From: Cellulosimicrobium arenosum
Lineage (GTDB): Bacteria > Actinomycetota > Actinomycetes > Actinomycetales > Cellulomonadaceae
Length of the DNA: 64,000 nucleotides
Assembly (NCBI RefSeq): GCF_014837295.1
Contig: NZ_JACYHB010000004.1
Coordinates: forward strand, 186,001 to 250,000
Direction: 5' to 3'
Of the stretch, positions 46,485 to 62,163 are shown one piece after another (position 1 is the stretch's first letter; every line of letters begins with the position of its first letter). Below the pieces are notes generated by a model that saw only the letters and a program-made list of their open reading frames with translations, did no database searches and had not been told where the DNA came from. The position numbers and the translations under genes were made by a program.

Positions 46485-48749
46485 CTACCGCCCGCCCGGT
46501 CGGCGGCGGTGGCGACGGACGAGCTCCGCCTGCAGGTCGCGGAGCGCGCCGCCGTCGGGCGCGGACCCGGGACGCTGCCACGCGCCGTCGGGCCCGAGGT
46601 GCCAGGCCGAGGTCCCGTCCGACATGGAGCTGTCCAGGAGATCGATGAGGTCGGTCGCGTGCTCGGTGTCGGCGATGCGCACGAGGGCCTCGACGCGGCG
46701 GTCGAGGTTGCGGTGCATGAGGTCGGCAGAGCCGATGAACACCTCGGGCCCGGACTCTGGTCCTTCGCCGATCGCGGGCCCGGCGCTGTTCGCGAACGCG
46801 TAGATGCGCGAGTGCTCGAGGAAGCGGCCCAGGATCGAGCGGACCCGGATGTTCTCGCTCAGCCCGGGGACGCCGGGGCGCACGGCGCAGATGCCGCGCA
46901 CCACGAGGTCGACCTGCGCCCCGGCCTGCGACGCCCGGTAGAGGGCGTCGATCGTGGTCTCGTCCACCACCGAGTTCACCTTGATCTTGACCCAGGCATC
47001 GTGGCCCGCGCGGGCCGCCGCGGCCTCGCGCTCGATCCGCTCCACGAGCCCGGTCCGCGCGGTCCGCGGCGCGACGAGGAGACGGTGGAAGCGGGACTGC
47101 GGCGCGTAGCCCGAGAGCTGGTTGAACAGCCTGGTCAGGTCCTGCCCGACGTCCGTGTCGCACGTGAGCAGACCGTGGTCCGTGTACTGGCGGGCCGTCT
47201 TCGGGTGGTAGTTCCCCGTGCCGACGTGGCAGTACCGACGCAGCCCGTCGGACTCCTGACGCACGACGAGCGACAGCTTGCAGTGCGTCTTGAGGCCGAC
47301 GATCCCGTACACCACGTGCACGCCCGCGTGCTCGAGCTTGCGCGCCCACGTGATGTTCGCCTGCTCGTCGAACCGCGCCTTGATCTCGACGAGCGCGAGC
47401 ACCTGCTTGCCCGCGTCGGCGGCGTCGATGAGCGCGTCCACGATCGGGGAGTCGCCCGACGTGCGGTACAGCGTCTGCTTGATGGCCAGCACCGCCGGGT
47501 CGGCCGCCGCCTGCTCGATGAACGTCTGCACCGACGTCGAGAACGAGTCGTACGGGTGGTGGAGCAGGATGTCGCGCTCGCGGATCGCGGCGAACAGGTC
47601 GGACGGCGAGGAGCTCTCCACCTCGGCGAGCTGGCGGGGCGTCGTGGGGACGAACGGCGGGAAGTGCAGGTCCGACCGCTCGAGGTCCGCCAGGAGATTG
47701 AGCCCGGTGAGGTCCAGCGGCTCCGGCAGCTCGTAGACCTCCTGCTCCACCACGTCCAGCTCGCGGATCAGCAGCGCGCGGATGCGCGGGCTGATCCCGT
47801 GCGTGAGCTCGAGCCGGACCGGCGGGCCGAACCGTCGCCGCAGCAGCTCCTTCTCCATGGCCTGCAGGAGGTTCTCCGCGTCGTCCTCCTCGACCTCGAC
47901 GTCCTCGTTGCGGGTCACGCGGAACGTGTGGTGCTCGCGCACCTCCATGCCCGGGAACAGGTGGTCGAGGTGGTGCGCGATGACCTCCTCGAGCGGGACG
48001 AACGACGTCGGCCCGCGGTCGGGGGCGGCCGTCTGCGAGGTCGGTGCGGACGGCCGTCCGCGTGCGTCCACGGCGATGAAGCGCGGCAGCAGCGGCGGCA
48101 CCTTGACGCGCGCGAAGTGCTCCTTGCCCGTCGTCGGGTTCACCACCACGACGGCGAGGTTGAGCGAGAGCCCCGAGATGTACGGGAAGGGATGCGCCGG
48201 GTCGACCGCGAGCGGGGTCAGGACCGGGAAGATCTGCTTGCGGAAGTACTTGTGGAGACGTTCCTGCTCACGGGTCTCGAGCTCGTCCCAGTGCACGAGC
48301 GTGATGCCCTCGCCCGCGAGCGCGGGCTGCACGTCGTCGGTGAAGACCTGGCCGTGACGGGCCATCAGGTCGTGGGCGCGCTCGCTGATGGCGTCCAGCA
48401 CCTGCCGGGGAGACAGCCCCGACGCGGCCGTGACCGCGATCCCCGTCGCCATGCGTCGCTTCAGCCCGGCCACCCGGACCATGAAGAACTCGTCCAGGTT
48501 CGAGGCGAAGATCGCGAGGAAGCGCAGCCGCTCCAGGAGCGGCTGCGAGGGGTCCTCCGCGAGCTCGAGCACCCGCTGGTTGAACGCGAGCCAGCTCAGC
48601 TCGCGGTCTGCGAACCGGTCGTCGGGGAGGTGGACGGACCCGTCGCCGTCGGCGCCGACGGCGACACCGTCCGGCTCCTCCGCGATGTGCTCGGCGATGT
48701 GCGCCGCGAGCTCCTTGTCGAGTGCTCGCTTGGTGGAGGTCTCCGTCAT
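46485..48749 (-). CDS. ppk1: Polyphosphate kinase 1
   Basis: This 754-aa enzyme makes inorganic polyphosphate from ATP. It has the N-domain ([18 protein letters not shown]), the catalytic His region [20 protein letters not shown] and the second PLD-like His/Lys region near the C-terminus ([20 protein letters not shown]). ATG 48749 is used; the ribosome site is modest. It lies 43 bp after mshD and 5 bp before the NUDIX/SixA gene, a likely operon. It is part of a phosphate block with DUF47-pit. Confidence 0.96.
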
Positions 48750-48792
48750 AGGTTCATGGTGGCACCTGTTGGTGAACGGCGCGTGACGCCGG

Positions 48793-49737
48793 TCACCCGG
48801 CATCCCGCGGGCCGTGCGCGGGCGCGTACTGCACGTGGGTCTCGCGCCGGAAGAACCCGGCGCGCTCGTACGTCCGCAGTGCGGGCACGTTGTCACCGTC
48901 GACGTAGAGCACGGCGACCTCCACCCCGACCCGTGCGAGGTGCGCGAGCCCGACGTCGGTCAGCAGCCGTCCCAGCCCCTCGCCCTGGGCGTCGGGGACC
49001 ACGCCGACGACGTAGATCTCGCCCTCGCGCGGACCGTCGCCCTGGTCCGTGGGCACCTTGGTCCAGACGAACCCGACGAGCTCGCCGGACGGCTCGCGCT
49101 CGAGCAGGAACAGCCCGGCCGGGTCGAACCAGTCCTCGCGCGTCCGCGCGTGCAGGTCGTCGACGGTCAGGCGACCCTGCTCGGGGTGGTGGGCGAACGC
49201 GAGCGCGTTGGCGCCGACCCAGGCCGCGTCGTCGGGCCCGGGGGAGAACGGCCGCACGCGCAGGCCCGGCGGGACGGTCGGGCCGGGGTGGCCCGACGCC
49301 GGTCCCAGCGGCCGGGCGAGCACGAGCAGCTCGCGCGCGACGACGAGACCGGACCGGGCGGCCAGGGACCGGGCCGCGGCCAGGTCCCCGTGCGCCCACA
49401 CGTGCAGCGGGTGCGCCGGGACCCGGTCCTGGGCGCTCGCGAGCAGGTGGAAGCCGAGGCCGTGCCGCCGGTGCGCGGGGCGCACGACGAGCTCCGCGCT
49501 CGGGGGGGCGCCGCGCCGGTCCACCTGGGCGTACCCGGCGAGCTCGCCGGACCTCCAGGTGAACAGGTGGACGACGTCGTCGCCCGGGGCGCGCAGGTTC
49601 AGCAGGGGCTGCTCGGACAGGGGGGCGACGCCGTCGACGCGCTCGGCGTCGGCGGCGAGGTCGTGCACCTGGGCCACCTCGAGGTCGTCGACGAGCGGGC
49701 CGGGGTGCCAGAGGATCGCGGTCTCCACCCGACCCAT
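48793..49737 (-). CDS. mshD: Mycothiol synthase
   Basis: MshD acetylates Cys-GlcN-Ins to mycothiol, the main thiol of actinobacteria. The 314-aa protein holds two GNAT domains; the C-terminal one shows [20 protein letters not shown], the acetyl-CoA loop, and [23 protein letters not shown] 49737 starts MGRVETAIL. It is the first gene of the mshD-ppk1-NUDIX run and divergent from the amidohydrolase cluster, whose control region begins in the 143-bp gap. Confidence 0.93.
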
Positions 49738-49818: not shown

Positions 49819-49855
49819 GTTCTGAATGTTCCTCTGATCAACATTTCACGAGAAC
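49819..49855 (+). promoter_or_regulatory. Operator A of the heterocycle cluster
   Basis: ATGTT (49826-49830), 9 bp, AACAT (49840-49844), extended as AATGTT/AACATT and flanked by GTTCT/AGAAC (49819-49823 with 49851-49855). A TACCGT hexamer (49815-49820) would put the start site inside the operator. The same ATGTT-N9-AACAT pattern occurs at 58656-58674. Confidence 0.6.
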
Positions 49856-49880
49856 TGGCCCTGACCTGTGAGGAGGTGCC

Positions 49881-51290
49881 GTGCACCACGACACCACGCC
49901 GACGATGCCGACGATGCCGACGACGCCCATGATGCCGGCGACGCTGCCGGTCGGCGCCCCCGACGCGGCGGCGACGCTCGCCGGGGCGCACATCGCCGGA
50001 CTGCGGGGCGTCCGGGCGCCCGACGGCACCGTGGTCGACCTCGACGTCGAGCGTGGACGGATCTCCGCGGCGACGCCGACCGGTGACCGCGCCGACGCGC
50101 CGGCGGGCCTGCTCCTCGACGCCCGCGGCTGGCGGGTGCTGCCCGCCGCGTGCGAGCCGCACGCGCACCTCGACAAGGCGCTCACCGCTGCGCGGATCCC
50201 TGCCGGGACGGGCGACGACCTCGTCGGTGCCGTCGCGCGCTGGCGCGAGCTCGCCGCCGGTATCGACGGGGCCGACGTCGCGCTGCGCGCCCGACGCGCC
50301 GTCGGACGCTACGTGGCCCGGGGCACCACGACGATCCGCACCCACGTCGACGTGCCCGTCGTCGGCGACCCGTTGCGCATGCTCGACGCGCTGCTCGACC
50401 TGCGGGACGAGCTCGCCGGGGCGGTCACCCTCCAGGTGTGCCTGCTCGGTGGCTCGCACACGAGCGACGCCGTCTACCTGGAGGCTGCCGCGCGCGGTGT
50501 CGACGTCCTCGGCGGCTGCCCGCACCTCGCTCCCGACCCCGCCCTCGAGATCTCCCGCGTCCTCGACCTCGCCGAGCGCACCGGCCTGCCCGTCGACCTG
50601 CACGCCGACGAGCAGACCGCCCTGCCGGACGCGGGGCTCCTCGACGTCGAGGACCTCGCGCAACAGGTGATCGCGCGTGGCCTGCAGCAGCGCGTCACCG
50701 CGAGCCACGCGGTGCGGCTCGGCTCGCTCCCGCCGGCGCGACTCGGGCCGGTCGTCGACCTCCTGGCCCGCGCGGGCCTCGGCGTCGTGACGCTGCCCAT
50801 CACCAACCTCTACCTCCAGGGACGCGACTCGACGCACCTCGCGCCGCGCGGCCTGACGGCCGTCCGCGCGCTCCTCGACGCCGGCGTCCCGCTCGCCGCG
50901 GGCGCCGACAACGTGCGCGACCCCTTCAACCCCGCCGGGACGTGCGACCCGTTCGAGACGACGTCGCTGCTCATGACCGCGGCCCACCTGACGCAGCGCG
51001 AGGCGCTCGACGCCGTCACCGCGGGCGCGCGCACCGTGCTCGGCCTCGAGCCCGCCGGGCCCGCCGTGGGGGAGCGCGCCGACCTCGTCCTGGTCCCGGA
51101 CGTCCCGCTCGGCGACGTCCTCGCCGGTGGCGAGCAGGCGCGCGTCGTCCTGACGGGCGGTCGGGTGGTCGCCGACACCCGCGTCGCCAGCGTCCTGGCG
51201 CTGGACCGGTCCGCCGTACCGACCACCACCGATCTGCCCGACCGCCCTGCCGCACCCGCGGCCCACCGACCCGACCAGCTCGTGAGGTGA
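49881..51290 (+). CDS. Amidohydrolase, cytosine deaminase-like
   Basis: This 469-aa metal-dependent deaminase/hydrolase of the amidohydrolase superfamily has the HAHLDKAL metal motif, LHADEQTAL, SHAVRLG and GADNVRDPFNPAGTCDPFET, the last with the Asp typical of cytosine/isopropylammelide-type deaminases. All the metal and catalytic positions I can identify are present. The N-terminal 25 residues are a Met/Pro/Thr repeat coded by 9-bp units. GTG 49881 has a perfect GAGGAGG. It is the first gene of the cluster under operator A. The substrate is unknown, probably a ring C-N bond of a nucleobase-like compound. Confidence 0.87.
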   Translation: MHHDTTPTMPTMPTTPMMPATLPVGAPDAAATLAGAHIAGLRGVRAPDGTVVDLDVERGRISAATPTGDRADAPAGLLLDARGWRVLPAACEPHAHLDKALTAARIPAGTGDDLVGAVARWRELAAGIDGADVALRARRAVGRYVARGTTTIRTHVDVPVVGDPLRMLDALLDLRDELAGAVTLQVCLLGGSHTSDAVYLEAAARGVDVLGGCPHLAPDPALEISRVLDLAERTGLPVDLHADEQTALPDAGLLDVEDLAQQVIARGLQQRVTASHAVRLGSLPPARLGPVVDLLARAGLGVVTLPITNLYLQGRDSTHLAPRGLTAVRALLDAGVPLAAGADNVRDPFNPAGTCDPFETTSLLMTAAHLTQREALDAVTAGARTVLGLEPAGPAVGERADLVLVPDVPLGDVLAGGEQARVVLTGGRVVADTRVASVLALDRSAVPTTTDLPDRPAAPAAHRPDQLVR

Positions 51291-51295
51291 CATCG

Positions 51296-52057
51296 ATGAG
51301 CACCACGACCACGCGACCGAAGTCCATGACCCGCACGCTCGTGCTCGACGACGTGACGAAGCAGTTCGCCACCGGCACCGTCGCGCTCGAGGACGTGAGC
51401 CTGTCCGTCGCCGCCGGCGAGTTCGTCACCGTCGTCGGTCCGTCCGGGTGCGGGAAGTCCACCCTCCTGCGTCTCGCGTCCGGCCTCGACGACGTCAGCG
51501 AGGGCAGCATCGAGGTCAACGCGCTCTCGACGTCCTACGTCTTCCAGGAGCCGACGCTCCTGGAGTGGCGCAGCGCGCTGCGCAACGTCGAGCTCGTCGG
51601 CGAGCTGCGCTCGGAGGGCAAGGCGGACCGGCGTCGTCGAGCGAAGGAGGCGCTGGACCTCGTCGGCCTCGCGGGGTTCGAGAAGCAGCACCCGCGCCAG
51701 CTCTCGGGCGGCATGCGCATGCGCGTCTCGATCGCCCGCGCGCTCGTGGCCGAGCCCGACCTCGCGCTGTTCGACGAACCGTTCGGCGCCCTCGACGAGA
51801 TCACGCGCCTGCACCTGCAGACCGAGCTGCAGCGGCTCTTCGCGCTCAAGCAGTTCGCCGGCCTGTTCATCACGCACTCCGTCTCGGAGGCCGTCTACCT
51901 GTCCACGCGCGTCGTCGTGATGAGCGGTCGACCCGGCCGCGTCGTCGCCGACATCCCGGTGCCGTGGGCCTACCCCCGGCCGCCCGAGCTGCGCTTCGAG
52001 CCCGAGTTCGCGGCGCTGACCGGCGAGGTCTCCGCCGCGCTCGGGGAGCACTCGTGA
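51296..52057 (+). CDS. ABC transporter ATPase (TauB/SsuB/ThiZ-like)
   Basis: This 253-aa nucleotide-binding subunit has Walker A GPSGCGKST, the Q-loop FQEPTLLEWRS, signature LSGGM, Walker B ALFDEPFGALDE, and the switch His in ITHSVSEAVYL. The sequence type is that of taurine/sulfonate/thiamine-pyrimidine importers. ATG 51296 follows GAGGTG; a GTG at 51287 overlapping the previous stop is possible. It powers the permease and binding protein that follow. Confidence 0.93.
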   Translation: MSTTTTRPKSMTRTLVLDDVTKQFATGTVALEDVSLSVAAGEFVTVVGPSGCGKSTLLRLASGLDDVSEGSIEVNALSTSYVFQEPTLLEWRSALRNVELVGELRSEGKADRRRRAKEALDLVGLAGFEKQHPRQLSGGMRMRVSIARALVAEPDLALFDEPFGALDEITRLHLQTELQRLFALKQFAGLFITHSVSEAVYLSTRVVVMSGRPGRVVADIPVPWAYPRPPELRFEPEFAALTGEVSAALGEHS

Positions 52058-52119
52058 GCGCGCCCGTGCGACCGTCCACCGCCCCCTCCGTCCCACCGCC
52101 CGGCTCGCAGGAGGTCTTC

Positions 52120-53037
52120 GTGCCTACGTCACTCGCGCTCCACCGGTCCGACGCCGCGCCCGCGGCGCAGCCCGCCTCGTCGGGCACCCGTCCCGCCGAC
52201 CCGGCATCGAGCGGCGACCCGGCGCGCACGCCTCGCGCGGCCCGCGGCCGGGCGGCCGCGGTGCTCGCGAAGGTCGGGCCGATCCTCGCGGCCCTCGGCG
52301 GGATCGTCGCGATCTGGTACCTCGTCAGCTACGTCGTGCTCACGCCCGAGCGGCAGTTCCTGCTCCCGCCCGTGCACGAGGTGCTCGCCAACACCGTCGG
52401 CAACCCGAACGTCATGGGACCCATGCTGGAGGCGCTGTGGCAGACCGTCGGTGTCGCCCTGTCCGGTCTGGCCATCGCCGTGGTCCTCGGCATCGGCTAC
52501 GCGGTCGTCATGGTGCAGTCGGGGTGGGCGGAGAAGATCCTCTACCCGTACGCCGTGATCCTGCAGACGATCCCGATCCTCGCGCTCACGCCGCTCATCG
52601 GGATCTGGATGGGGTACGGGTTCAGCGCGCGCATCGTGGTCTGCGTGATCATCGCGCTCTTCCCGATGATCTCGAACACGCTGTTCGGCCTGCAGTCGGC
52701 GAGCCCGGCGGCGCACGACCTCTTCACCCTCAACAAGGCGACGCGAGCGCAGCGGCTCTACAAGCTGCAGTTCCCGGCCGCCCTGCCGTCGATCTTCACG
52801 GGTCTGCGCAACGCCGCCGGCCTGAGCGTCATCGGCGCGATCGTCGGCGACTTCTTCTTCCAACAAGGCTCGCCCGGTATCGGAGGTCTCCTGCGGACCT
52901 ACACGCTGCGGCTCAACATGGACGCGCTGTTCATGGCGATCATCCTCACCGCGATCTTCGGCGTCGTCGTCTTCTCCGTGTTCGCCGCGCTGGACCGCGC
53001 CGTCATCGGCCGCTGGTACGGCACCGGCGGTCGCTGA
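52120..53037 (+). CDS. ABC transporter permease
   Basis: This 305-aa membrane subunit (BPD_transp_1) with about six helices has the EAA-loop-like stretch LNKATRAQRLYKLQFPAALP, then SIFTGLRNAAG. A 50-residue Ala/Pro-rich N-terminal extension precedes the first helix. GTG 52120 has a near-perfect AGGAGG; GTG 52054, overlapping the ATPase stop by 4 bp, is an alternative giving 327 residues. It completes an importer with the adjacent genes. Confidence 0.9.
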   Translation: MPTSLALHRSDAAPAAQPASSGTRPADPASSGDPARTPRAARGRAAAVLAKVGPILAALGGIVAIWYLVSYVVLTPERQFLLPPVHEVLANTVGNPNVMGPMLEALWQTVGVALSGLAIAVVLGIGYAVVMVQSGWAEKILYPYAVILQTIPILALTPLIGIWMGYGFSARIVVCVIIALFPMISNTLFGLQSASPAAHDLFTLNKATRAQRLYKLQFPAALPSIFTGLRNAAGLSVIGAIVGDFFFQQGSPGIGGLLRTYTLRLNMDALFMAIILTAIFGVVVFSVFAALDRAVIGRWYGTGGR

Positions 53038-53111
53038 CCGCCCTCCTCGCCACCTCTCGCCCTCTCTCGTCCCCGACCGGCCAGTCCCGTCTCTCCAGCC
53101 AGGAGCACACC

Positions 53112-54302
53112 ATGACCCTCTCCCGACCCCGTCGCGCCCTCGCGACCTCGCTCGCCCTCGTCCCGCTCGTCGCCCTCGGTGCGTGCGCGAGCGAGGGGAC
53201 CACCGACGCCGGCTCCGGCGGTGGCGATCTCGACGTCGCGGCGGCCGAGGCCGACGGTCCGCTCGACCTCTCCGGCGTGTGCCCGGCGACCGTCGTCATG
53301 CAGCAGGACTGGCAGCCCGAGTCCGAGCACGGCGCGATGTACTCGCTCGTGGGTGCGGACTACACGGTCGACACCGACACGAAGTCCGTCACCGGGTCGC
53401 TCGTCGCCCAGGGCGTCGACACCGGGGTCGACGTCGAGGTCCGCCCCGGCGGCCCGAACGTGAACTTCCAGCCGGTGCCGTCCCTGATGTACCTGGACGA
53501 CTCGATCCTGCTCGGCGCGGTCACGACCGACGCCCAGATCACGGCGCTGGCCGACAACCCGGTCGTGACGGTCGCGTCCCAGCTGACCACGAGCCCGCAG
53601 ATCGTCATGTGGGACCCGGAGAGCCACGACGGCGCCACCACCATCGAGGAGGCCGCCGCGGACGGGGACCCGCTCGTCTCCTCCGGCGACGTCTTCCCGC
53701 GCCTCCTGGAGTCCCAGGGGATCATCACCGAGTCCCAGATCGACCTGAGCTACGAGGGCACGCCGCAGCGGTTCGTGTCCGACCCGGCGATCATGCAGCA
53801 GGGCTTCGCGACGGCCGAGCCGTACATCTACGAGAACGAGATCCCGCAGTGGAGCAAGCCGGTCGGCTACCAGCTGCTCGCCGACGTCGGCTACTCCGTG
53901 TACCCGGAGGCCCTGACCGTGCGTGCGGACACGCTCGAGGAGAACGCGGACTGCCTCGCGAGGCTCGTCCCGATCATGCAGCAGTCGCAGATCGACTACC
54001 TCGCGGACCCCGACACCACGAACGAGCTGATCGTCGACCTCGTCGAGCAGTACCAGACGGGGTGGACCTACTCGACCGGCGTCGCCGACTTCTCGGTGCA
54101 GGCGCAGAAGGACCAGGGCCTCGTGACGGACGACCCGGCGTCGGGCGTGTTCGGGCAGATCGACCCCGAGCGCATGGGCGAGATCGTCGACACGTTCGGT
54201 CCGATCCTCGTCGACGCCGGCCAGATCACGTCGGCCGACATCGACCCGGAGAGCCTCTACACCAACGAGTTCATCGACGACTCGATCTCGATGGGCAGCT
54301 GA
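53112..54302 (+). CDS. ABC transporter substrate-binding lipoprotein (NMT1/ThiY-like)
   Basis: This 396-aa exported lipoprotein has the lipobox VALGACAS and a type-II periplasmic-binding fold, with VCPATVVMQQDWQPESEHGA and a mature sequence of the NMT1/thiamine-precursor/hydantoin-binding type (PEALTVRADTLEENADCLAR). It determines what is imported, so its ligand is the key to the cluster. ATG 53112 follows CCAGGAGCACACC. It is the third transporter part in the order ATPase-permease-binding protein. Confidence 0.9.
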   Translation: MTLSRPRRALATSLALVPLVALGACASEGTTDAGSGGGDLDVAAAEADGPLDLSGVCPATVVMQQDWQPESEHGAMYSLVGADYTVDTDTKSVTGSLVAQGVDTGVDVEVRPGGPNVNFQPVPSLMYLDDSILLGAVTTDAQITALADNPVVTVASQLTTSPQIVMWDPESHDGATTIEEAAADGDPLVSSGDVFPRLLESQGIITESQIDLSYEGTPQRFVSDPAIMQQGFATAEPYIYENEIPQWSKPVGYQLLADVGYSVYPEALTVRADTLEENADCLARLVPIMQQSQIDYLADPDTTNELIVDLVEQYQTGWTYSTGVADFSVQAQKDQGLVTDDPASGVFGQIDPERMGEIVDTFGPILVDAGQITSADIDPESLYTNEFIDDSISMGS

Positions 54303-54314
54303 GGGAGCACACAG

Positions 54315-55688
54315 ATGACCAGCACCACCAGCACGAAGCCCGCGGGGACCGTCGCCGAGCGCACCGCTCTCGCAGCGGCCCGGATCGCCGACCTGCTCGG
54401 CCCGGACCTCGTCTCGACCGACGCCGAGCTGTTGCTCAAAGCGTCCTCCGACTGGTCCCGGATGTCTCCCGTCCTCCAGGAGAAGGTCCCGGCCGGGCGG
54501 TACCTTCCCGACGCGGTCGTCCGGCCGCGCACGGGCGACGACGTCGCCCAGGTCCTCAAGGCGGCGTACGAGCACGACGTGCCCGTGACGCCGCGCGGCT
54601 CCGGGACGGGCAACTACGGACAGGCGACGCCGTTCGACGGCGGGCTCGTCCTCGACCTGCGCGGGCTGGACTCGATCCGTGTGAACGACTCGGGGACCGT
54701 GACCGCGGGAGCGGGGGCGAAGATCACCGCGATCGACGTCGCCGCCCGCGCGGCCGGGCGCGACATCTGGATCTACCCGTCCACCAAGGGCTCGACCATC
54801 GGCGGCTTCGTGGGCGGCGGGTCGGCAGGGACGGGGACGATCGAGCACGGCTCGACGTCCGACGGGTTCGTGCTGTCGCTGACGGTCGCGCCCATGGACG
54901 GCAGCGGCACGACCTTCACCGTCGCCGGCCCGGACGTCGCGCCGTACGTGCACGTGTACGGCGTGACGGGCGTCGTCGTCGAGCTCGAGATCGCCACCGA
55001 TCCCGCCCGGGAGTGGGTCGCCGTCTACGCGGCGTTCGACGACTGGGACGCGATGACGGGCGTGCACCGCTCGCTGCTCGACCTGCCGGTCCTGCCCCGG
55101 CTCGCGTCGGCGGACCCGCCGGCCCTCGTGCCGAGCCTGCCCGCGTCGGTCCCGCTCGACCCGGCGAAGCACAGCCTGCGCGTCATCGCCGAGGCGTCGA
55201 CGGTGAGCGAGGTCGAGGCGCGCGTCGTCGCGGGGGGCGGCGCCGTCGTCGCGAGCCTCGCGGACTACGCGGAGACGGACAAGCTCTCGTCGATGTCCTA
55301 CAACCACCCGGTGTACTTCCTGCAGAAGGCGCACCCGGACCGCTCGTGGTTCCACATGGAGACGGGGGGCCTCGCGCACTGGGACGCCCCGGCGGCCGTC
55401 CAGGAGGCCTACGACGGGGACGTGCACCTGCACGTCGAGCTCATGGGGCACGCCCCGCTCGCCATGGTCGTGGCGGACTACGTCTGCGAGGACCAGGTGC
55501 TCGCCGGGATCCCGCGGCTCGAGGCGCTCGGGCTGGGCGTCCACTCGCCGCACCAGTGGTACGTCGACCGCAACGTCGAGCTCGCTCGCGAGACCGCGCG
55601 CACGACCGACCCGAAGGGCCTGCTCAACCCGGGCAAGCTCGTCGACGCACCGCCCGTGGACACGCGCCTGAACATCGGGGTGCGCTGA
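54315..55688 (+). CDS. FAD-linked oxidase (GlcD/FAD_binding_4 type)
   Basis: This 457-aa flavoenzyme of the VAO/PCMH superfamily has the FAD PP-loop VTPRGSGTGNYGQATPFDGG, the TKGSTIGGFVGGGSAGTGTI segment and a C-terminal SPHQWYVD...DPKGLLNPGKL block typical of glycolate oxidase-like dehydrogenases. It presumably oxidises a cluster intermediate. ATG 54315 is 12 bp after the binding-protein stop. The stop overlaps the creatininase start (TGATG). Confidence 0.9.
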   Translation: MTSTTSTKPAGTVAERTALAAARIADLLGPDLVSTDAELLLKASSDWSRMSPVLQEKVPAGRYLPDAVVRPRTGDDVAQVLKAAYEHDVPVTPRGSGTGNYGQATPFDGGLVLDLRGLDSIRVNDSGTVTAGAGAKITAIDVAARAAGRDIWIYPSTKGSTIGGFVGGGSAGTGTIEHGSTSDGFVLSLTVAPMDGSGTTFTVAGPDVAPYVHVYGVTGVVVELEIATDPAREWVAVYAAFDDWDAMTGVHRSLLDLPVLPRLASADPPALVPSLPASVPLDPAKHSLRVIAEASTVSEVEARVVAGGGAVVASLADYAETDKLSSMSYNHPVYFLQKAHPDRSWFHMETGGLAHWDAPAAVQEAYDGDVHLHVELMGHAPLAMVVADYVCEDQVLAGIPRLEALGLGVHSPHQWYVDRNVELARETARTTDPKGLLNPGKLVDAPPVDTRLNIGVR

Positions 55689-56509
55689 TGGCCCCGCGCG
55701 TGCCCCGGTTCCTGGACATGACCTGGCAGGAGGTCGCGGCGCTCCCGGCGGGGACCGTCGCGGTCCTCCCGCTCGGGGCGGTCGAGCAGCACGGTCCGCA
55801 CCTGCCCGTCTCGACGGACCTCGTCACCGCGAGCGAGACGGCGGCCGCGGCGGTCGAGACGGTGACGGCGTCGGGCGAGGCGTCGGTGGTGCTCCTCGAG
55901 GCCCTGGCGTACACGAAGTCGGACGAGCACGCCGGGTTCCCCGGCACCGTGTGGCTCTCGTGGGACACCCTCATGCGGGTCCTGGTCGACGTCGGCCGGT
56001 CCCTCGCGGCGTCCGGCATCGAGCGTCTCGTGCTCGTCAACGGCCACGGCGGCAACTCCGCGCTGGGCCAGGTGGCGAACCGCGAGCTGCGGCGCCGGTT
56101 CGGCCTGCGGACGTTCTTCGCCCACGTCTCGACGCCGCGCGACCAGGGTGGGGCTCCGGCATCGGGTGGCGAGCACGGCCTCGGCGTGCACGGGGGGCAC
56201 GGCGAGACGTCCCTCATGCTGCACCTGCGGCCCGAGCTCGTGCACATGGAGCTCGCGGAGCGGCGCGTGCCCGAGGGCCTGCTCGCCTACGAGCAGATCG
56301 GGTTCGGCAAGCCCGTGTCGTTCGGGTGGCTGTCGAGCGACTTCGGGGCCGACGGGCACGTGGGCGACCCGACGACCGCCACGGCCGAGGCCGGCAAGGA
56401 GATGTTCGAGCACGCCGTCGAGCAGCTGGCCCGGACCCTGGTCGAGGCGGCCCGCTTCACGACGCCCGTCGACGGTGCCGCCGGTCTCGTCGCGCGGGAC
56501 CGCACGTGA
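55688..56509 (+). CDS. Creatininase-family amidohydrolase
   Basis: This 273-aa metal enzyme of the creatininase family has the complete set LPLGAVEQHGPHLPVSTD, HAGFPGTVWLSWDT, VNGHGGNSALGQ and GVHGGHGETSLMLHLRP. Members cleave cyclic or linear amide bonds (creatinine, formamides, other small rings). Here it is expected to open a ring or remove a side amide from the imported compound. It overlaps the FAD oxidase stop by 1 bp and the next amidohydrolase by 4 bp. Confidence 0.9.
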   Translation: MAPRVPRFLDMTWQEVAALPAGTVAVLPLGAVEQHGPHLPVSTDLVTASETAAAAVETVTASGEASVVLLEALAYTKSDEHAGFPGTVWLSWDTLMRVLVDVGRSLAASGIERLVLVNGHGGNSALGQVANRELRRRFGLRTFFAHVSTPRDQGGAPASGGEHGLGVHGGHGETSLMLHLRPELVHMELAERRVPEGLLAYEQIGFGKPVSFGWLSSDFGADGHVGDPTTATAEAGKEMFEHAVEQLARTLVEAARFTTPVDGAAGLVARDRT

Positions 56510-57903
56510 GCGGTGCCGTGGCCGCCACGAACGGGCCGACGCCGGCCCTGGTCGTGCGGGGCGCGCTCGCGGTCCGCACGGGGCCGGGGCCCGACGCGGC
56601 CGAGCCCGCGGGCGACGTCGTCGTGGGCGGCGACGGCCGGGTGCTGGAGGTCGGGCGGGACGCGTCCCCGGTCGTCCGGGCCGACGGCGACCGCGGAGCC
56701 TCCGTGCCCGAGCTGGACGCGACCGGGTGCGTGGTCACTCCCGGGCTCGTGAACGCCCACCACCACCTGCTCCAGACGGCGTTCCGCACGCTGCCCGGGA
56801 CGCGCGGCGTCCCCATGCGCGAGTGGCTGCCGACGATGGCGGCGGCGTACGCGCGGGCGCACGTCGACGCCGAGCTCGTGGGCGCGGCCGCGCGCGCCGG
56901 TCTCGCGGAGGCGCTGCTCTGCGGTGTGACGACGGTCGCGGACCACCACCTCACCTGGCCGGCGCACGTGGACGTGGACGGATCGGTCGAGCTCGCACTG
57001 TCTGCCGCGGCGGCCGCCGACGAGCTGGGCGCGCGCCTGGTCCTCGTGCGCGGCACCGCGGGCGACGACGCCGAGCTCGCCGCCCTCAGCGCGGACGCGA
57101 TCGCGGCCGCGCTCGTCGACGGGGGCTCCGGCGGGGTGCGAGCCGACGGTCGCGTGCAGGTAGCGGTGGGCCCGGCCGGCGTGCACAGCGACGGCGAGGC
57201 GACGTTCCGTCTGCTCGCCGAGGTCGCGGCGCACCGCGGGCTGCGGCGACGCACCCAGGCGAACGAGCAGGTCGACGTCGTGATCGCGCTCGAGCGCTAC
57301 GGCCGCCGACCGATCGACCTGCTCGACGACTGGGGGTGGCTCACGCCGGACGTGACGCTCGCGCACCTGTGCGACGTCACGGACGACGAGATCGCTCGCG
57401 TCGCGGCGAGCGGCGTGAGCGCGACGCACGCGCCCGGGTGCGACGTGCCGATGGGCTGGGGCGTCGCGCCGGTCGCCCGGCTGCTCGCCGCCGGGGTGCG
57501 CGTGGGGCTCGGGACGAGCGGCGGCGGGTCGAACGACGCCGGGCACCTGCTCGCCGACGCACGGCTCGCGATGCAGGTGTCGGGCCTCGTCGGGCGCCAG
57601 CTCGCCGCGCGCGACGTGCTCGACGCCGCGACCGCCGGGTCCGCGGACGGTCTCGGCCGCCTGGAGCTCGGACGGCTGGAGACCGGGAGCGCGGGAGACC
57701 TGTGCGTGTGGGACGTGTCGGGGGTCGCCGACGCCGGTGTCGCGGACCCGGTCGCCGGGCTGCTGTGGGCGTCGCCCGGGCGTCGCCCGCGGCACGTCGT
57801 GGTCGGCGGGCGTGTCGTCGTGCGCGACGGGCGGCTGGTCACGGCGGACGAGCGTGGTCTCGCGCGCGTCCTCAGTCGACGGCTCGCACCAGCCGCTGCT
57901 TGA
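56506..57903 (+). CDS. Amidohydrolase, 8-oxoguanine deaminase-like, with altered metal site
   Basis: This 465-aa amidohydrolase-superfamily protein is similar overall to 8-oxoguanine/TrzN-type deaminases: VTPGLVNAHHHLLQTAFRTL, LLCGVTTVADHHLTWP, ERYGRRPIDLLDDWGWLTPD. The strand-5 HTHLAE position reads RTQANE and the strand-8 GVDGSASND position reads GTSGGGSND, so one metal His and the catalytic Asp appear lost. It may be a non-catalytic or differently acting homologue. GTG 56506 overlaps the creatininase stop. It is convergent with the XRE-cupin gene, overlapping its end by 32 bp. Confidence 0.85.
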   Translation: MSGAVAATNGPTPALVVRGALAVRTGPGPDAAEPAGDVVVGGDGRVLEVGRDASPVVRADGDRGASVPELDATGCVVTPGLVNAHHHLLQTAFRTLPGTRGVPMREWLPTMAAAYARAHVDAELVGAAARAGLAEALLCGVTTVADHHLTWPAHVDVDGSVELALSAAAAADELGARLVLVRGTAGDDAELAALSADAIAAALVDGGSGGVRADGRVQVAVGPAGVHSDGEATFRLLAEVAAHRGLRRRTQANEQVDVVIALERYGRRPIDLLDDWGWLTPDVTLAHLCDVTDDEIARVAASGVSATHAPGCDVPMGWGVAPVARLLAAGVRVGLGTSGGGSNDAGHLLADARLAMQVSGLVGRQLAARDVLDAATAGSADGLGRLELGRLETGSAGDLCVWDVSGVADAGVADPVAGLLWASPGRRPRHVVVGGRVVVRDGRLVTADERGLARVLSRRLAPAAA

Positions 57904-58513
57904 CGGCGAGCAGCCGGTAGGGACCGCCGTCGGCGCTGGCCCACCGGTGGCGGGTCCCGCTGGGGTAGAACACGGAGTCGCCCGGCTCGAGCAGGTCCAC
58001 CGTGCCGTCGAGGTCGAGCAGCACGCGTCCCTCGACGACGTACGCGAACTCGTCCTCGTCGTGCAGCCAGTACTCGCCGAGGTCCTGGGACGTGCCGGTG
58101 TACTCGAGCGGGTCGAACGGCCGGTCGCCGGCGGCGGCGAGAGCGCGGACGGTCCCGCCACCGGCGGACGCGGACGCCTCCTCGGTGCGCCGCAGCACGG
58201 GCGAGGCGCTCGCCGTGGTCGCCGTCGCCTCGGCGAGCAGGACCTGCTGGGTCGTCCCGAGCGTCGTGGCGACCCGGAACAGCGAGGACATGCTCAGGCG
58301 CGCGTGGCCGCGCTCGACCTGGCTGAGGAACGAGTGCGAGAGCCCGGTCGCGTCGGCGAGCTGGACGAGCGTGAGACCGTGCGCGTGCCGCAGCGTGCGG
58401 ATCCGCTGGCCGAGGCGCGTGACGGAACGGTCGAGCGGGTCCGCCGCGCCGCCGTCGGCGGGGACGACCGCGCCGTCGGACACCGCGGGTGCGTCGTCGG
58501 TGGGGGCGACCAT
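57872..58513 (-). CDS. XRE-cupin transcriptional regulator
   Basis: This 213-aa regulator has an XRE helix-turn-helix (IRTLRHAHGLTLVQLADATG, then LSHSFLSQVERGHARLSMSS) and a C-terminal cupin (YWLHDEDEFAYVVEGRVLLD, then LEPGDSVFYPSGTRHRW) that probably binds the inducer. ATG 58513 lies 6 nt after TACGAT on the minus strand, a leaderless start. It sits between the two halves of the catabolic cluster and next to operator B, and is the best candidate for their shared regulator. Confidence 0.9.
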   Translation of the reverse strand: MVAPTDDAPAVSDGAVVPADGGAADPLDRSVTRLGQRIRTLRHAHGLTLVQLADATGLSHSFLSQVERGHARLSMSSLFRVATTLGTTQQVLLAEATATTASASPVLRRTEEASASAGGGTVRALAAAGDRPFDPLEYTGTSQDLGEYWLHDEDEFAYVVEGRVLLDLDGTVDLLEPGDSVFYPSGTRHRWASADGGPYRLLAVKQRLVRAVD

Positions 58514-58655
58514 GGCTCGATCGTAGGGGAGCACGGGCGTTCGCCGCCCCCGTCCGCCACCTCCTGCGCTCCGGTACATGACGGCCCGGCGAGCCGTAAC
58601 AGACTCCGTGCGTCGGCGTGACGCGCGCGAAACATCAGGGGCACACGATGGGGGC

Positions 58656-58674
58656 ATGTTGATGACATCAACAT
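58656..58674. promoter_or_regulatory. Operator B of the heterocycle cluster
   Basis: ATGTTGATGACATCAACAT is a perfect 9-bp-arm palindrome around one base, with the same ATGTT-N9-AACAT core as operator A at 49826-49844. It coincides with the start codons of the flavin reductase-like gene (ATG 58656 or 58662) in the gap shared with the XRE-cupin gene. A dimer bound here would block initiation. Confidence 0.6.
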
Positions 58675-59201
58675 CGCGCACCGCGACCGTCACCGACGGC
58701 TTCCGTGACGCGATGGCCGGGCTGGCGAGCGGGGTGTGCGTGGTGACGACGGCGGTCGGTGGCGAGCCCGCGGGACTCACGACCACCGCGGTCATGAGCG
58801 TGAGCCTCGACCCGCCGCTCCTCGCGGTCGGGGTCGGGCGGTCGAGCCGGACGCTCCCGACGCTGCGCGAGGCGCGCGCGTTCGTCGTGCACGTGCTGCA
58901 GCACGACCGCGAGTCGACGGCCGCGACCTTCGCGTCGAAGGCGGCCGACAAGTTCGCCGGGCTGGACGTGCGCACCGGGCGCCACGGGATCCCGGTCCTG
59001 GCCGACGACGCCAGGTACGCGCTCGAGTGCGACACCTGGCACGAGGTCGAGGCCGGTGACCACGTGCTCCTCCTGGGCCGCGTGGCCGAGGTCCACCGCG
59101 GGCTCCCGGATCACACGGATGGCGGCCGGGCCCTCGTCCACTTCGACCGCGCCTTCCACCGGGTCGGCCCCCTCGCGGTCGAGCCCGGTCAGACCGCGTG
59201 A
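58656..59201 (+). CDS. Flavin reductase-like protein (DIM6/RutF family)
   Basis: This 181-aa FMN-binding split-barrel protein has FRDAMAGLASGVCVVTTAVG, GLTTTAVMSVSLDPPLLAVG, AFVVHVLQHDRESTAATFAS and DHVLLLGRVAEVHRG. It should supply reduced flavin to a monooxygenase, or act as an oxidoreductase itself. ATG 58656 (or 58662) follows GATGGGGGC; an ATG at 58578 gives a longer, atypical N-terminus. It overlaps the next FAD gene by 4 bp. No classical flavin monooxygenase is adjacent. Confidence 0.87.
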   Translation: MLMTSTSRTATVTDGFRDAMAGLASGVCVVTTAVGGEPAGLTTTAVMSVSLDPPLLAVGVGRSSRTLPTLREARAFVVHVLQHDRESTAATFASKAADKFAGLDVRTGRHGIPVLADDARYALECDTWHEVEAGDHVLLLGRVAEVHRGLPDHTDGGRALVHFDRAFHRVGPLAVEPGQTA

Positions 59202-60697
59202 GGCGCACCGGCGCCACCCGCAGCGCTCTCGCCGCCGACCCCGCGTTCGCCGTCGAGACCGCTCCCGCCGCGGGCGCTGCGCCCGTCGGGCTCGCCGGCA
59301 CCGTCTCGAGCGACCTCGGCGACGGGCGCTACGAGGCCGCGCGCCGCGGCCTGGCCGTCTCGGGCGTCGTCCCCCCGGACCGTCCGGCCCGGGTCGTGCA
59401 GGTCTGCGACGCGGCCGGGGTCCTCGCCGCGCTGGACCACGCCAGTGCCGCAGGACTCGGCGTGACGATCCGCTCGGGCGGCCACAGCACGGCGTTCACC
59501 GCGCTGCGCGACGGCGCGCTCGCGCTCGACGTGTCGGGCCTCGACGACGTGTCGATCGACCACGCGACCGGGACGGCGATCGTCGGGCCGGGAACCACCT
59601 CGCTCGCGCTCGCGGAGGCGCTCGCCGGGACCGGTCTCGCCTTCCCCGTCGGGCACAGGGCGAGCGTCGGTCTGGGCGGGTTCCTGCTCGCGGGCGGCAA
59701 CGGCTGGAACCAGGGTGCCTGGGGGAGCGCGTGCGAGTCCGTGCTCGGGGCGCAGGTGGTGCTGGCCGACGGCCGTCGCACGAGCCTCGACGCGCAGACC
59801 GACGCCGAGGCGTTCGCCGTCCTGCGGGGCGCCGGGCCCGCGTTCCCCGCGGTCGTGACCGCATTCCGGCTGCGCCTGTGGCCCGAGCCGACGGTCCGAC
59901 GGCGCACGGCCCGGTTCCGGGTCGACGTCCGGACGGCGCTCTCCGACCTCGCCGCGGCCGGGAGGTGGGCCGACGCCTTCGCCGCCGACCTGGCCCCCGA
60001 GGTCGAGCTCACCCTCGTGCTCTCGCCCGGAGAGAGGGAGGAGCCACCGGTCGTGGTGGCGAGCGTGACCGCGTTCGGCCGCGACGGCGACCACGCCGAG
60101 GAGCTGCTGGCTCCGCTGGGCCGGTGCGGTCCGGTCGAGCAGACCACGCTCGCGCCCTCGACGACGTCGATCCCCGACCTCCTGCGGGTCGACACCACGC
60201 CGACCGGGACCGGGAGCGTCGCGCAGCAGACATGGACCCGCGCGGGCTACGCCGAGGTCCTGCCGAGGCTGGCGCGACCGCTCGCGGCCGCGCCGTCGCC
60301 GCTGTCCAGCGTGCTCGTGAGCTCCGCCTCGTACCGCCGTGCCGCTGCGCCCGCCACCGAGCCGCTGCACCGACCGCGCGGGACCCTGACCGTCGCCGCG
60401 TACTCGACGTGGGTGCCGGGGGTGGACGACGCCGCGAACCTCGCGTGGCCCACGGCCGTCGTCGAACCCCTCGCCGACGTCGTGACCGGCCACTACGTCG
60501 GCGAGCTCGACCTGCGTGCGACGCCCGAGCGGATCGGGCGCTGCTGGGAGCCCGGCGGCCTCGCGCGCGTCGCCGCCGTGCGCGCCCGGCTCGACCCCGC
60601 CGGCGGACTCGTCCCGCCGCCGGGGTGGCCGGCCGTCGTCGGGCCGCCCTGCTCAGCCGTCGAGACCGCACCGCACCACCAGGAACGGACCCCATGA
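59198..60697 (+). CDS. BBE-like FAD-dependent oxidoreductase
   Basis: This 499-aa VAO/PCMH-superfamily oxidase of the berberine-bridge/6-hydroxynicotine oxidase type has a PP-loop with the His used for covalent FAD attachment (VTIRSGGHSTAF). The position where bicovalent enzymes carry the 6-S-Cys reads GHRASVGLGGFLLAGG, without Cys, so it is at most monocovalent. Such enzymes oxidise N-heterocycles. GTG 59198 overlaps the previous stop; its end overlaps the next gene by 4 bp. Confidence 0.88.
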   Translation: MRRTGATRSALAADPAFAVETAPAAGAAPVGLAGTVSSDLGDGRYEAARRGLAVSGVVPPDRPARVVQVCDAAGVLAALDHASAAGLGVTIRSGGHSTAFTALRDGALALDVSGLDDVSIDHATGTAIVGPGTTSLALAEALAGTGLAFPVGHRASVGLGGFLLAGGNGWNQGAWGSACESVLGAQVVLADGRRTSLDAQTDAEAFAVLRGAGPAFPAVVTAFRLRLWPEPTVRRRTARFRVDVRTALSDLAAAGRWADAFAADLAPEVELTLVLSPGEREEPPVVVASVTAFGRDGDHAEELLAPLGRCGPVEQTTLAPSTTSIPDLLRVDTTPTGTGSVAQQTWTRAGYAEVLPRLARPLAAAPSPLSSVLVSSASYRRAAAPATEPLHRPRGTLTVAAYSTWVPGVDDAANLAWPTAVVEPLADVVTGHYVGELDLRATPERIGRCWEPGGLARVAAVRARLDPAGGLVPPPGWPAVVGPPCSAVETAPHHQERTP

Positions 60698-62163
60698 CCC
60701 GCACCGCACCTCTCGCCCTCACCGTCGTCGACGCCCTCGTGCTGCCCGGCGCGGACGACGGCCCGCCGTGGTACTTCGGCTGGCTGCAGGTCGGGACCGA
60801 CGGGTGCATCCTCGCGACCGGCCCGGGCGAGCCGCCCGACGACGCCGCGACCGCGACCGTGCTCGACGCCGCGGGCGCGATCCTCGCCCCCGGTTTCGTG
60901 TCCGCGCACTCGCACCTGTTCACGTCGGGACTGCGCGGCATCGCGCCCGACGCGACGCTCTACCCGTGGGTGCGGTCGATGATGGAGCTGTTCCGCCACA
61001 CCGACGCCGAGGACATGTACTGGTCGACCCTGCACGGGTCGATGGACTTCCTCGCCAACGGCGTGACGAGCGCCTACAACTTCATGCAGTCGGGCGTGAC
61101 CTGGCTGTACGACCCGGCGACCGCGCGCAACGTCCTCGGCCGCGTCCACCCCGACGAGTACACGACCCGCCAGATGGACGGCACGGTCGACGCCGGCCTG
61201 CGGGCCGTGCACGCGATCCGGCTCGACGACGAGGCCGGGCCGGAGGACGAGGTGCTCTCACGGTTCGCGCGCATGGTCGACGCCGCGCGCGACCCCGGGC
61301 GTGCCGGGCGCGACCAGCACCTCGGCGTGTCCGTCATGGGTGCGGTGCAGTGGGCGAGCGGGCCGCGCACGGCCGAGCTCGAGGTCGCGGTGATGCGCGA
61401 GCACGGGATCACCGACCAGGCGCACTTCGTCGAGACCGCCGAGGGCCTCGACGTACAGCGCGAGAAGTTCGCCTGGTACGAGCGGGCGGGCGCGCTGGGG
61501 CCGGACCTGCTCCTCGGGCACTTCGTCCACCCGACGGACTCGATGGTCGCCGCCGTCTCGGACGCCGGCAGCCCCGTCGTGTGGCAGCCGACGTCGAACG
61601 GTCGGCTCGGCTCGGGGGTCGCGGACGTGGTCAGGTACCGCCGCGCAGGGATCCCGGTGGGGGTGGGTCTGGACGACCAGTCGTGCACCGACATCTCCGA
61701 CCCGTGGGCGAACATGCGCCAGGGCCTGTACGCCCAGCGCGCGCTGCACCAGGATGCCGGCGTGCTCTCGCCGCGGGACATGCTGCGGCTGCACACGCTC
61801 GGCTCGGCCGAGGTGCTCGGCGTCGCCGACCGGGTGGGGAGCCTCGAGGTCGGCAAGCACGCGGACTTCGTGCTCGTCGACCACCGCTCGCCCAGCACCG
61901 GACCGGTGTGGGACGTGGTCGCGACGTACGTGCTCGCGTGCGGGCTGCGCAACCTGCAGGCGACGTACGTGGGCGGGCGATGCGTTGCGCGCGACGGGCG
62001 GGCGACGACCCCGCTCGCCGCCCGCGCCGACGCCGAGCTCGCCGAGCGGATCGAGCGGGCCGCCCACGCCGACGGGCGCAGTCTCGCCGTCACCGCGGAC
62101 GAGCTCGTCTCCGTGGCGGCGCGACGCTCGCGCGACGCCCCCGTCAGTCCTCGGAGACCGTGA
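60694..62163 (+). CDS. Amidohydrolase, TrzN/AtzB-like deaminase
   Basis: This 489-aa metal-dependent hydrolase with an intact site has GFVSAHSHLFTSGLRG (HxH), AHFVETAE (His plus Glu at strand 5), LGHFVHPTD (strand 6 His), WQPTSNGRLGSG and GVGLDDQSCTD (catalytic Asp). It resembles s-triazine and purine-type deaminases. ATG 60694 overlaps the previous stop. The C-terminus overlaps the convergent ohr gene by 20 bp. It is the last gene of the second half of the cluster. Confidence 0.88.
   Translation: MTRTAPLALTVVDALVLPGADDGPPWYFGWLQVGTDGCILATGPGEPPDDAATATVLDAAGAILAPGFVSAHSHLFTSGLRGIAPDATLYPWVRSMMELFRHTDAEDMYWSTLHGSMDFLANGVTSAYNFMQSGVTWLYDPATARNVLGRVHPDEYTTRQMDGTVDAGLRAVHAIRLDDEAGPEDEVLSRFARMVDAARDPGRAGRDQHLGVSVMGAVQWASGPRTAELEVAVMREHGITDQAHFVETAEGLDVQREKFAWYERAGALGPDLLLGHFVHPTDSMVAAVSDAGSPVVWQPTSNGRLGSGVADVVRYRRAGIPVGVGLDDQSCTDISDPWANMRQGLYAQRALHQDAGVLSPRDMLRLHTLGSAEVLGVADRVGSLEVGKHADFVLVDHRSPSTGPVWDVVATYVLACGLRNLQATYVGGRCVARDGRATTPLAARADAELAERIERAAHADGRSLAVTADELVSVAARRSRDAPVSPRRP

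Follow-up and report, generated by a model that had tools for sequence, protein, structure and literature searches.

The window, as I call the whole 64,000-nucleotide stretch of DNA analysed here, carries at 49881-62163 a gene cluster that is real; its set of genes turns up again in many genera and in a second phylum, which is more than chance would produce. Reading of the sequence and codon statistics give eleven genes, ten structural and one encoding an XRE-cupin regulator. The cluster is a real instance of a widely conserved catabolic module with no assigned pathway found in the open literature: in open PubMed Central full text (subscription papers lie outside this scope) I found no paper assigning the gene set to a pathway. 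The preliminary description, which had called it an uptake-and-degradation cluster without a matching pathway, is thus borne out for the searchable open literature. From the kinds of gene alone, one would expect uptake of a compound, its deamination and oxidation, and hydrolysis of a cyclic amide. My preferred reading, held tentatively and at a little under an even chance, is that of one nitrogen-scavenging regulon through which a purine-derived or similar amino-N-heterocycle would be imported, deaminated, oxidised and hydrolysed.

The host is a high-GC actinobacterium with a genome of about 3.95 Mb. Genes A-G form a first run and I-K a second, with the regulator H between them on the opposite strand (Table 1). 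Pfam and NCBIfam profile searches confirmed the gene families assigned earlier, the amidohydrolases falling under Amidohydro_1/3; D has no match in either collection. The runs had been described as joined mostly by 1-4-bp overlaps, which holds for five of the eight junctions (4 bp at F/G, I/J and J/K, 4 bp at B/C provided that C begins at GTG 52054, and 1 bp at E/F), whereas A/B, C/D and D/E are separated by gaps of 5, 74 and 12 bp, respectively. To the left, genes that by eye resemble polyphosphate kinase and mycothiol synthase occupy 46485-49737 on the reverse strand, so the module seems to have been inserted beside housekeeping genes.

Table 1. Genes and operator-like sites of the cluster, in window positions.
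Feature	Position	Strand	Basis
A: cytosine-deaminase-like amidohydrolase	49881-51290	+	family profiles; usual metal-site residues by eye
B: ABC transporter ATPase, TauB/SsuB type	51296-52057	+	family profiles (ABC_tran)
C: ABC transporter permease; start GTG 52054 or GTG 52120	52054 (or 52120)-53037	+	BPD_transp_1
D: lipoprotein-type substrate-binding protein, ThiY/Thi5-like predicted fold	53112-54302	+	no Pfam match
E: GlcD-type FAD enzyme; closest solved relative PDB 6v42	54315-55688	+	FAD_binding_4
F: creatininase-family hydrolase	55688-56509	+	Pfam Creatininase; metal-binding motifs by eye
G: TrzN-like amidohydrolase, altered metal site	56506-57903	+	profiles, alignment to TrzN
H: XRE-cupin transcriptional regulator; convergent with G, divergent from I	57872-58513	-	HTH and cupin
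I: flavin reductase, HpaC/RutF-like	58656-59201	+	Flavin_Reduct
J: BBE-type FAD enzyme	59198-60697	+	FAD_binding_4
K: amidohydrolase, PRK08204/8-oxoguanine-deaminase-like group	60694-62163	+	profiles; ligand positions by eye
Operator-like 17-bp palindrome TGTTCCTCTGATCAACA before the first run	49827-49843		two mismatches to TGTTGATNNNATCAACA; conserved before A in relatives
Perfect operator-like palindrome TGTTGATGACATCAACA, overlapping the start of I	58657-58673		motif scan

A search with E across 297 genomes of the class returned 22 strong matches, host included, and in the twelve E loci examined a single 20-kb stretch also held the ABC transporter, A and F. When 84,980 species genomes were scanned with a profile of D, 408 relatives were confirmed, and 60 of the best 80 of these had at least 8 kb of context on both sides. 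By counts that are approximate, resting on a home-made gene caller and BLAST clustering, a six-gene core (A, B, C, D, E and F) is complete in 51 of the 60 full-context loci and under 20 of 23 genus-level labels. Of these 51 core loci, 45 include G (with the canonical type included at one, in Dietzia), 44 include H and 38 a PdxH-like gene. The preliminary description had made its case depend on co-conservation of the two halves in relatives; the first half is strongly conserved, whereas the second is patchy (I in 9, J in 4 and K in 11 of the 51), yet the operator-like site is common to both. G and a metallo-beta-lactamase-fold hydrolase, found in five loci, are mutually exclusive, with one locus holding neither. 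All five of these loci hold, in addition, a biuret-hydrolase-like isochorismatase and an AtzH-amidase; FmdA occurs in four of them, and a cupin likewise in four. At L041:669-2336 a metallo-beta-lactamase-fold hydrolase is fused to an HpxZ/AtzH-like domain.

Several related loci carry further genes. At L038:7065-8144 a VanA-type Rieske oxygenase is encoded between G and K, in a locus that also has an FNR-Fer2 reductase; it was not seen in the other loci. In L053, L058, L060, L061, L075, L082, L083 and L087, the module contains or adjoins an FTCD_C (methenyl-THF cyclohydrolase-like) gene accompanied by an MTHFR-like gene, in several cases with the operator or its variant in between, which suggests release of a one-carbon unit. 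A demethylation route by Rieske oxygenase and C1-folate enzymes was considered but is not claimed for the present organism, the VanA-type oxygenase being confined to that one related locus and the MTHFR-like gene giving no match in a search of the host genome run without a positive control.

The core also recurs on plasmids of Alphaproteobacteria, in Rhizobium and in marine members of the class. All six core genes lie together on a plasmid of Nitratireductor sp. OM-1, and BLAST gives 28-58% identity to their window counterparts. A plasmid search with the window's own E at 1e-25 gave no match; with the Nitratireductor homologue of E as bridge query, 135 plasmid records with an E relative were retrieved, 109 of them from Rhizobium. 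In the annotated examples opened, a single block comprises creatininase, LysR regulator, binding protein, ATPase, permease, cytosine deaminase, FAD oxidoreductase, FMN reductase and usually RidA; the same genes, differently ordered, are found in Pseudooceanicola, Salipiger and Mameliella. Core homology was confirmed by BLAST for one Rhizobium, one Agrobacterium, the Pseudooceanicola and the Salipiger copies, the core of Mameliella and of the later Rhizobium examples being assigned by annotation only. Ruegeria and a second Agrobacterium have partial versions. In Klebsiella pneumoniae L140 (CP125156.1) the annotation shows only the transporter, an E relative and RidA, with neither creatininase nor deaminase; the module may be reduced there. 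Together, about twenty actinobacterial genera and 135 plasmids with E relatives, 109 of them in Rhizobium, point to a common soil and rhizosphere nitrogen source, for the degradation of which I found no assigned genes.

Whether the two runs belong together is answered better by a rare operator-like site common to both than by gene order. The palindrome TGTTGATNNNATCAACA occurs perfectly at the start of I and with two mismatches before A (Table 1), and allowing three mismatches yields no third site in the 64-kb window (2 observed against 0.08 expected). In the whole host genome, at up to two mismatches, there is one site before each run and only one further site, itself with two mismatches. At the same stringency, 1.72 Mb from 92 related loci contains 70 sites, and a reversed control palindrome has none in the same 1.72 Mb. 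Most of the 70 precede A, H, I, J, K, an FNR-type reductase, an MTHFR-like gene or one of the metallo-beta-lactamase, amidase, isochorismatase, cupin and LLM genes, and a few precede unassigned genes. In Ruania and Occultella K stands under its own perfect site, and a variant, TGTTGGNNNNNCCAACA, mainly of Microbacterium, marks A together with the reductase and the MTHFR-like gene. A-G and I-K are thus very probably one regulon.

The palindrome is present in 52 of 61 loci bearing H, and from this co-occurrence I infer that H is its likely binding partner. The nine H loci without the site belong to Pseudonocardia, Actinomycetospora and Kineosporia, some with weaker versions, and seven loci have the site with no H gene called. 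With the palindrome, the regulon can be delimited readily and its inducer sought directly.

The cluster enzymes score below the curated functional cut-offs used for comparison. A falls short of the three NCBIfam cytosine deaminase models (PRK07572, 189 against 438; PRK07583, 187 against 403; PRK09230, 152 against 483), K of 8-oxoguanine deaminase NF006055 (165.7 against 532) and F of creatininase TIGR04448 (103 against 235), although F clearly belongs to the Pfam Creatininase superfamily (236 against 31.3). By eye, A and K keep the usual metal-ligand positions, K having the HSH, His, His and Asp positions. For PDB 6v42, the structure closest to E, no paper was found in open PubMed Central full text.

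An amidohydrolase with a changed metal site had been noted before, and one does exist, but it is G, the enzyme closest in sequence to TrzN; the "intact TrzN/AtzB-like" enzyme of the same description can therefore mean only K, which fits that label loosely. The predicted model of G has the TrzN fold (TM about 0.85, pLDDT 91). The metal-site residues of TrzN are His66, His68, His238, His274 and Thr325. On alignment G has Gln251 for His238 and Ser338 for Thr325, so that it falls outside TrzN, and it retains the other three histidines (66, 68 and 274), keeping the HxH pair, the beta6 His and the catalytic Glu. Both changes are common to all 56 G-clade members examined, which makes TrzN and 8-oxoguanine deaminase poor guides to the substrate. 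The same loci in Herbiconiux, Naasia and Dietzia also hold seven canonical enzymes whose ligands are intact; the canonical Herbiconiux enzyme scores 610.6 on NF006055, where G reaches 258.5 against the cut-off of 532. Judged by these residues and scores, G is neither TrzN nor 8-oxoguanine deaminase, and it provides a test of how far the TrzN/AtzA fold can vary its metal site yet stay functional.

The creatininase family of F invites a first alternative, namely that the substrate is a five-membered cyclic guanidine or urea of the creatinine, 2-aminoimidazolone or hydantoin type. A would then act as a creatinine deaminase, E would oxidise next to the carbonyl, F would open the lactam and, in proteobacteria, RidA would handle the imine. 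The compact rhizobial and roseobacterial version of the module (importer, A, E, F, FMN reductase and RidA) agrees with this, as do the hydantoinase B and ureidoglycolate lyase added in the Nitratireductor copy and the related actinobacterial loci with a biuret-hydrolase-like isochorismatase and AtzH-amidase. However, F is far from the creatininase cut-off, the window cluster has neither hydantoinase nor N-carbamoylsarcosine amidase, and the creatinine set of Corynebacterium includes no GlcD-type FAD enzyme and no such importer (PMC8864220). I consider this alternative unlikely, although it is the strongest of the competitors.

The binding protein D also bears on the substrate. Its predicted structure (pLDDT 91.7) is closest to binders of thiamin, formylaminopyrimidine and Thi5 type (3ix1, 4nmy) at 12-17% identity. 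Homology to NMT1 members is weak (25-27% identity) and D lies outside the Pfam NMT1 model; several of its proteobacterial counterparts are NMT1/THI5 proteins. Sequence searches of the PDB with D found no true relative, and the nearest named relative is a Cellulosimicrobium protein of 90% identity. Taurine, sulfonates and bicarbonate are also ligands of this type of fold. About 1.1 kb past the end of the window (G000:C28:251137-252285; L124:6128-7288) lies the gene for a further binding protein with about 45% identity to D, with no recognised ABC partners adjoining and no operator.

These folds could also indicate a substituted aminopyrimidine such as the thiamin pyrimidine, which A would deaminate, E oxidise at the hydroxymethyl group or a ring position, and F hydrolyse at the ring. 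The nearest folds of D are thiamin-, FAMP- and HMP-synthase proteins, A is cytosine-deaminase-like, and the proteobacterial counterparts of A do pass the NCBIfam PRK07583 'cytosine deaminase' cut-off. Against this, the recurrent neighbours are purine, ureide and C1 genes, with no thiamin-degrading or pyrimidine-specific gene recognised among them, and I regard an aminopyrimidine as decidedly improbable.

Purine genes (XDH, XdhC, uricase, allantoinase, OHCU decarboxylase or guanine deaminase) lie within about 10 kb in 19 of 68 core loci, from Frigoribacterium, Herbiconiux, Agreia, Naasia, Dietzia and Microbacterium suaedae (twice: L036 and L101). In a genome of the window's own family (L127) the complete core stands between XDH and uricase. 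Apart from Dietzia and that one relative from the window's family, such adjacency is concentrated in Microbacteriaceae; purine-gene neighbours are lacking in the window, in most loci and in most of the rhizobial copies opened. In the host, allantoinase and uricase genes lie at a separate locus (G000:C7; L136:5599-18255) with HIU-hydrolase-like and OHCU-decarboxylase genes, and the module therefore probably serves something other than ordinary urate degradation. That the cluster is simply redundant purine degradation from guanine to urate is very improbable, for although XDH, uricase or allantoinase genes accompany those 19 loci, the host keeps its uricase locus elsewhere, relatives hold a canonical 8-oxoguanine deaminase beside G, Agreia has a guanine deaminase, and urate degradation has no known step that requires E or F.

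The genes behind the same operator in relatives include ureide- and amide-cleaving enzymes, and together with the D fold and the purine neighbours they favour a purine-derived or ureide-like ring, without pointing to any one molecule. The preliminary description had proposed a modified purine, a pterin or a similar compound: a nitrogen ring, plausibly purine-like, agrees with the D fold and with the minority of loci in purine islands, but a pterin has no specific support. The alternation of oxidation and hydrolysis that it proposed is putative, as is the order of the steps. Under the preferred reading of a nitrogen-scavenging regulon, H would control the transcripts A-G and I-K through the common 17-bp palindrome. 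D, C and B would import an amino-substituted N-heterocycle, from which A would take off the exocyclic amine. The ring would be oxidised by E and, in this organism, also by J with flavin supplied by I. F would open the cyclic amide, and G and K would cleave further C-N bonds to yield ammonia. The likeliest substrate class would be purine-derived, either a purine that has been modified or oxidised or the imidazolone formed on its breakdown. Counting against this reading are the distance of the fold similarity of D, the restricted purine adjacency, the separate uricase/allantoinase locus of the host, the enzyme scores under the curated cut-offs and the lack of I, J and K in most related loci. A bolder form, possible although the balance is against it, is that the core represents a mobile and as yet unassigned pathway, shared between phyla, for a widespread natural N-heterocycle (for example a modified purine or an imidazolone) and that G is a new amidohydrolase subtype working with a Gln/Ser-altered metal site.

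Set beside known systems, the cluster shares parts with several. ThiXYZ and TauABC importers have the same type of ATPase and permease, and D has a ThiY/Thi5-like predicted fold, but this binding protein lies outside the Pfam NMT1 model. Of the s-triazine pathway (TrzN/AtzA, AtzB, AtzC), G has the predicted fold of TrzN and A resembles AtzC-type enzymes; G, however, lacks H238 and T325 of TrzN, and the cluster has oxidation enzymes and no cyanuric acid hydrolase. I is RutF/HpaC-like, and some relatives have genes for a RutB/biuret-hydrolase-like isochorismatase and an LLM monooxygenase behind the same operator, but RutA (the luciferase-like monooxygenase) and RutB are not among A-K, and the core enzymes E and F have no Rut counterpart. 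G and K fall in the amidohydrolase group of 8-oxoguanine deaminase, and some related loci adjoin XDH, uricase and allantoinase genes of aerobic purine degradation, but G is far under the curated score with ligands missing, and the classical urate set (uricase, HIU hydrolase, OHCU decarboxylase) lies not in the cluster but on contig G000:C7. Creatine and creatinine utilisation in Corynebacterium (CrnT, CodA, CreT, CrnA, CshA and HyuB; PMC8864220) likewise combines a creatininase-family hydrolase with a cytosine-deaminase-like enzyme for nitrogen supply, although it uses other transporters and no GlcD-type FAD enzyme, and neither hydantoinase HyuAB nor creatinase with N-carbamoylsarcosine amidase is present among A-K. 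Finally, lumichrome (vitamin B2) catabolism in Nocardioides simplex employs a P450, a TPP-dependent decarboxylase and a ring-cleaving dioxygenase (PMC12746152), none of which is among A-K, but it is likewise the work of an actinobacterial cluster that dismantles an N-heterocycle by hydrolases and oxidases.
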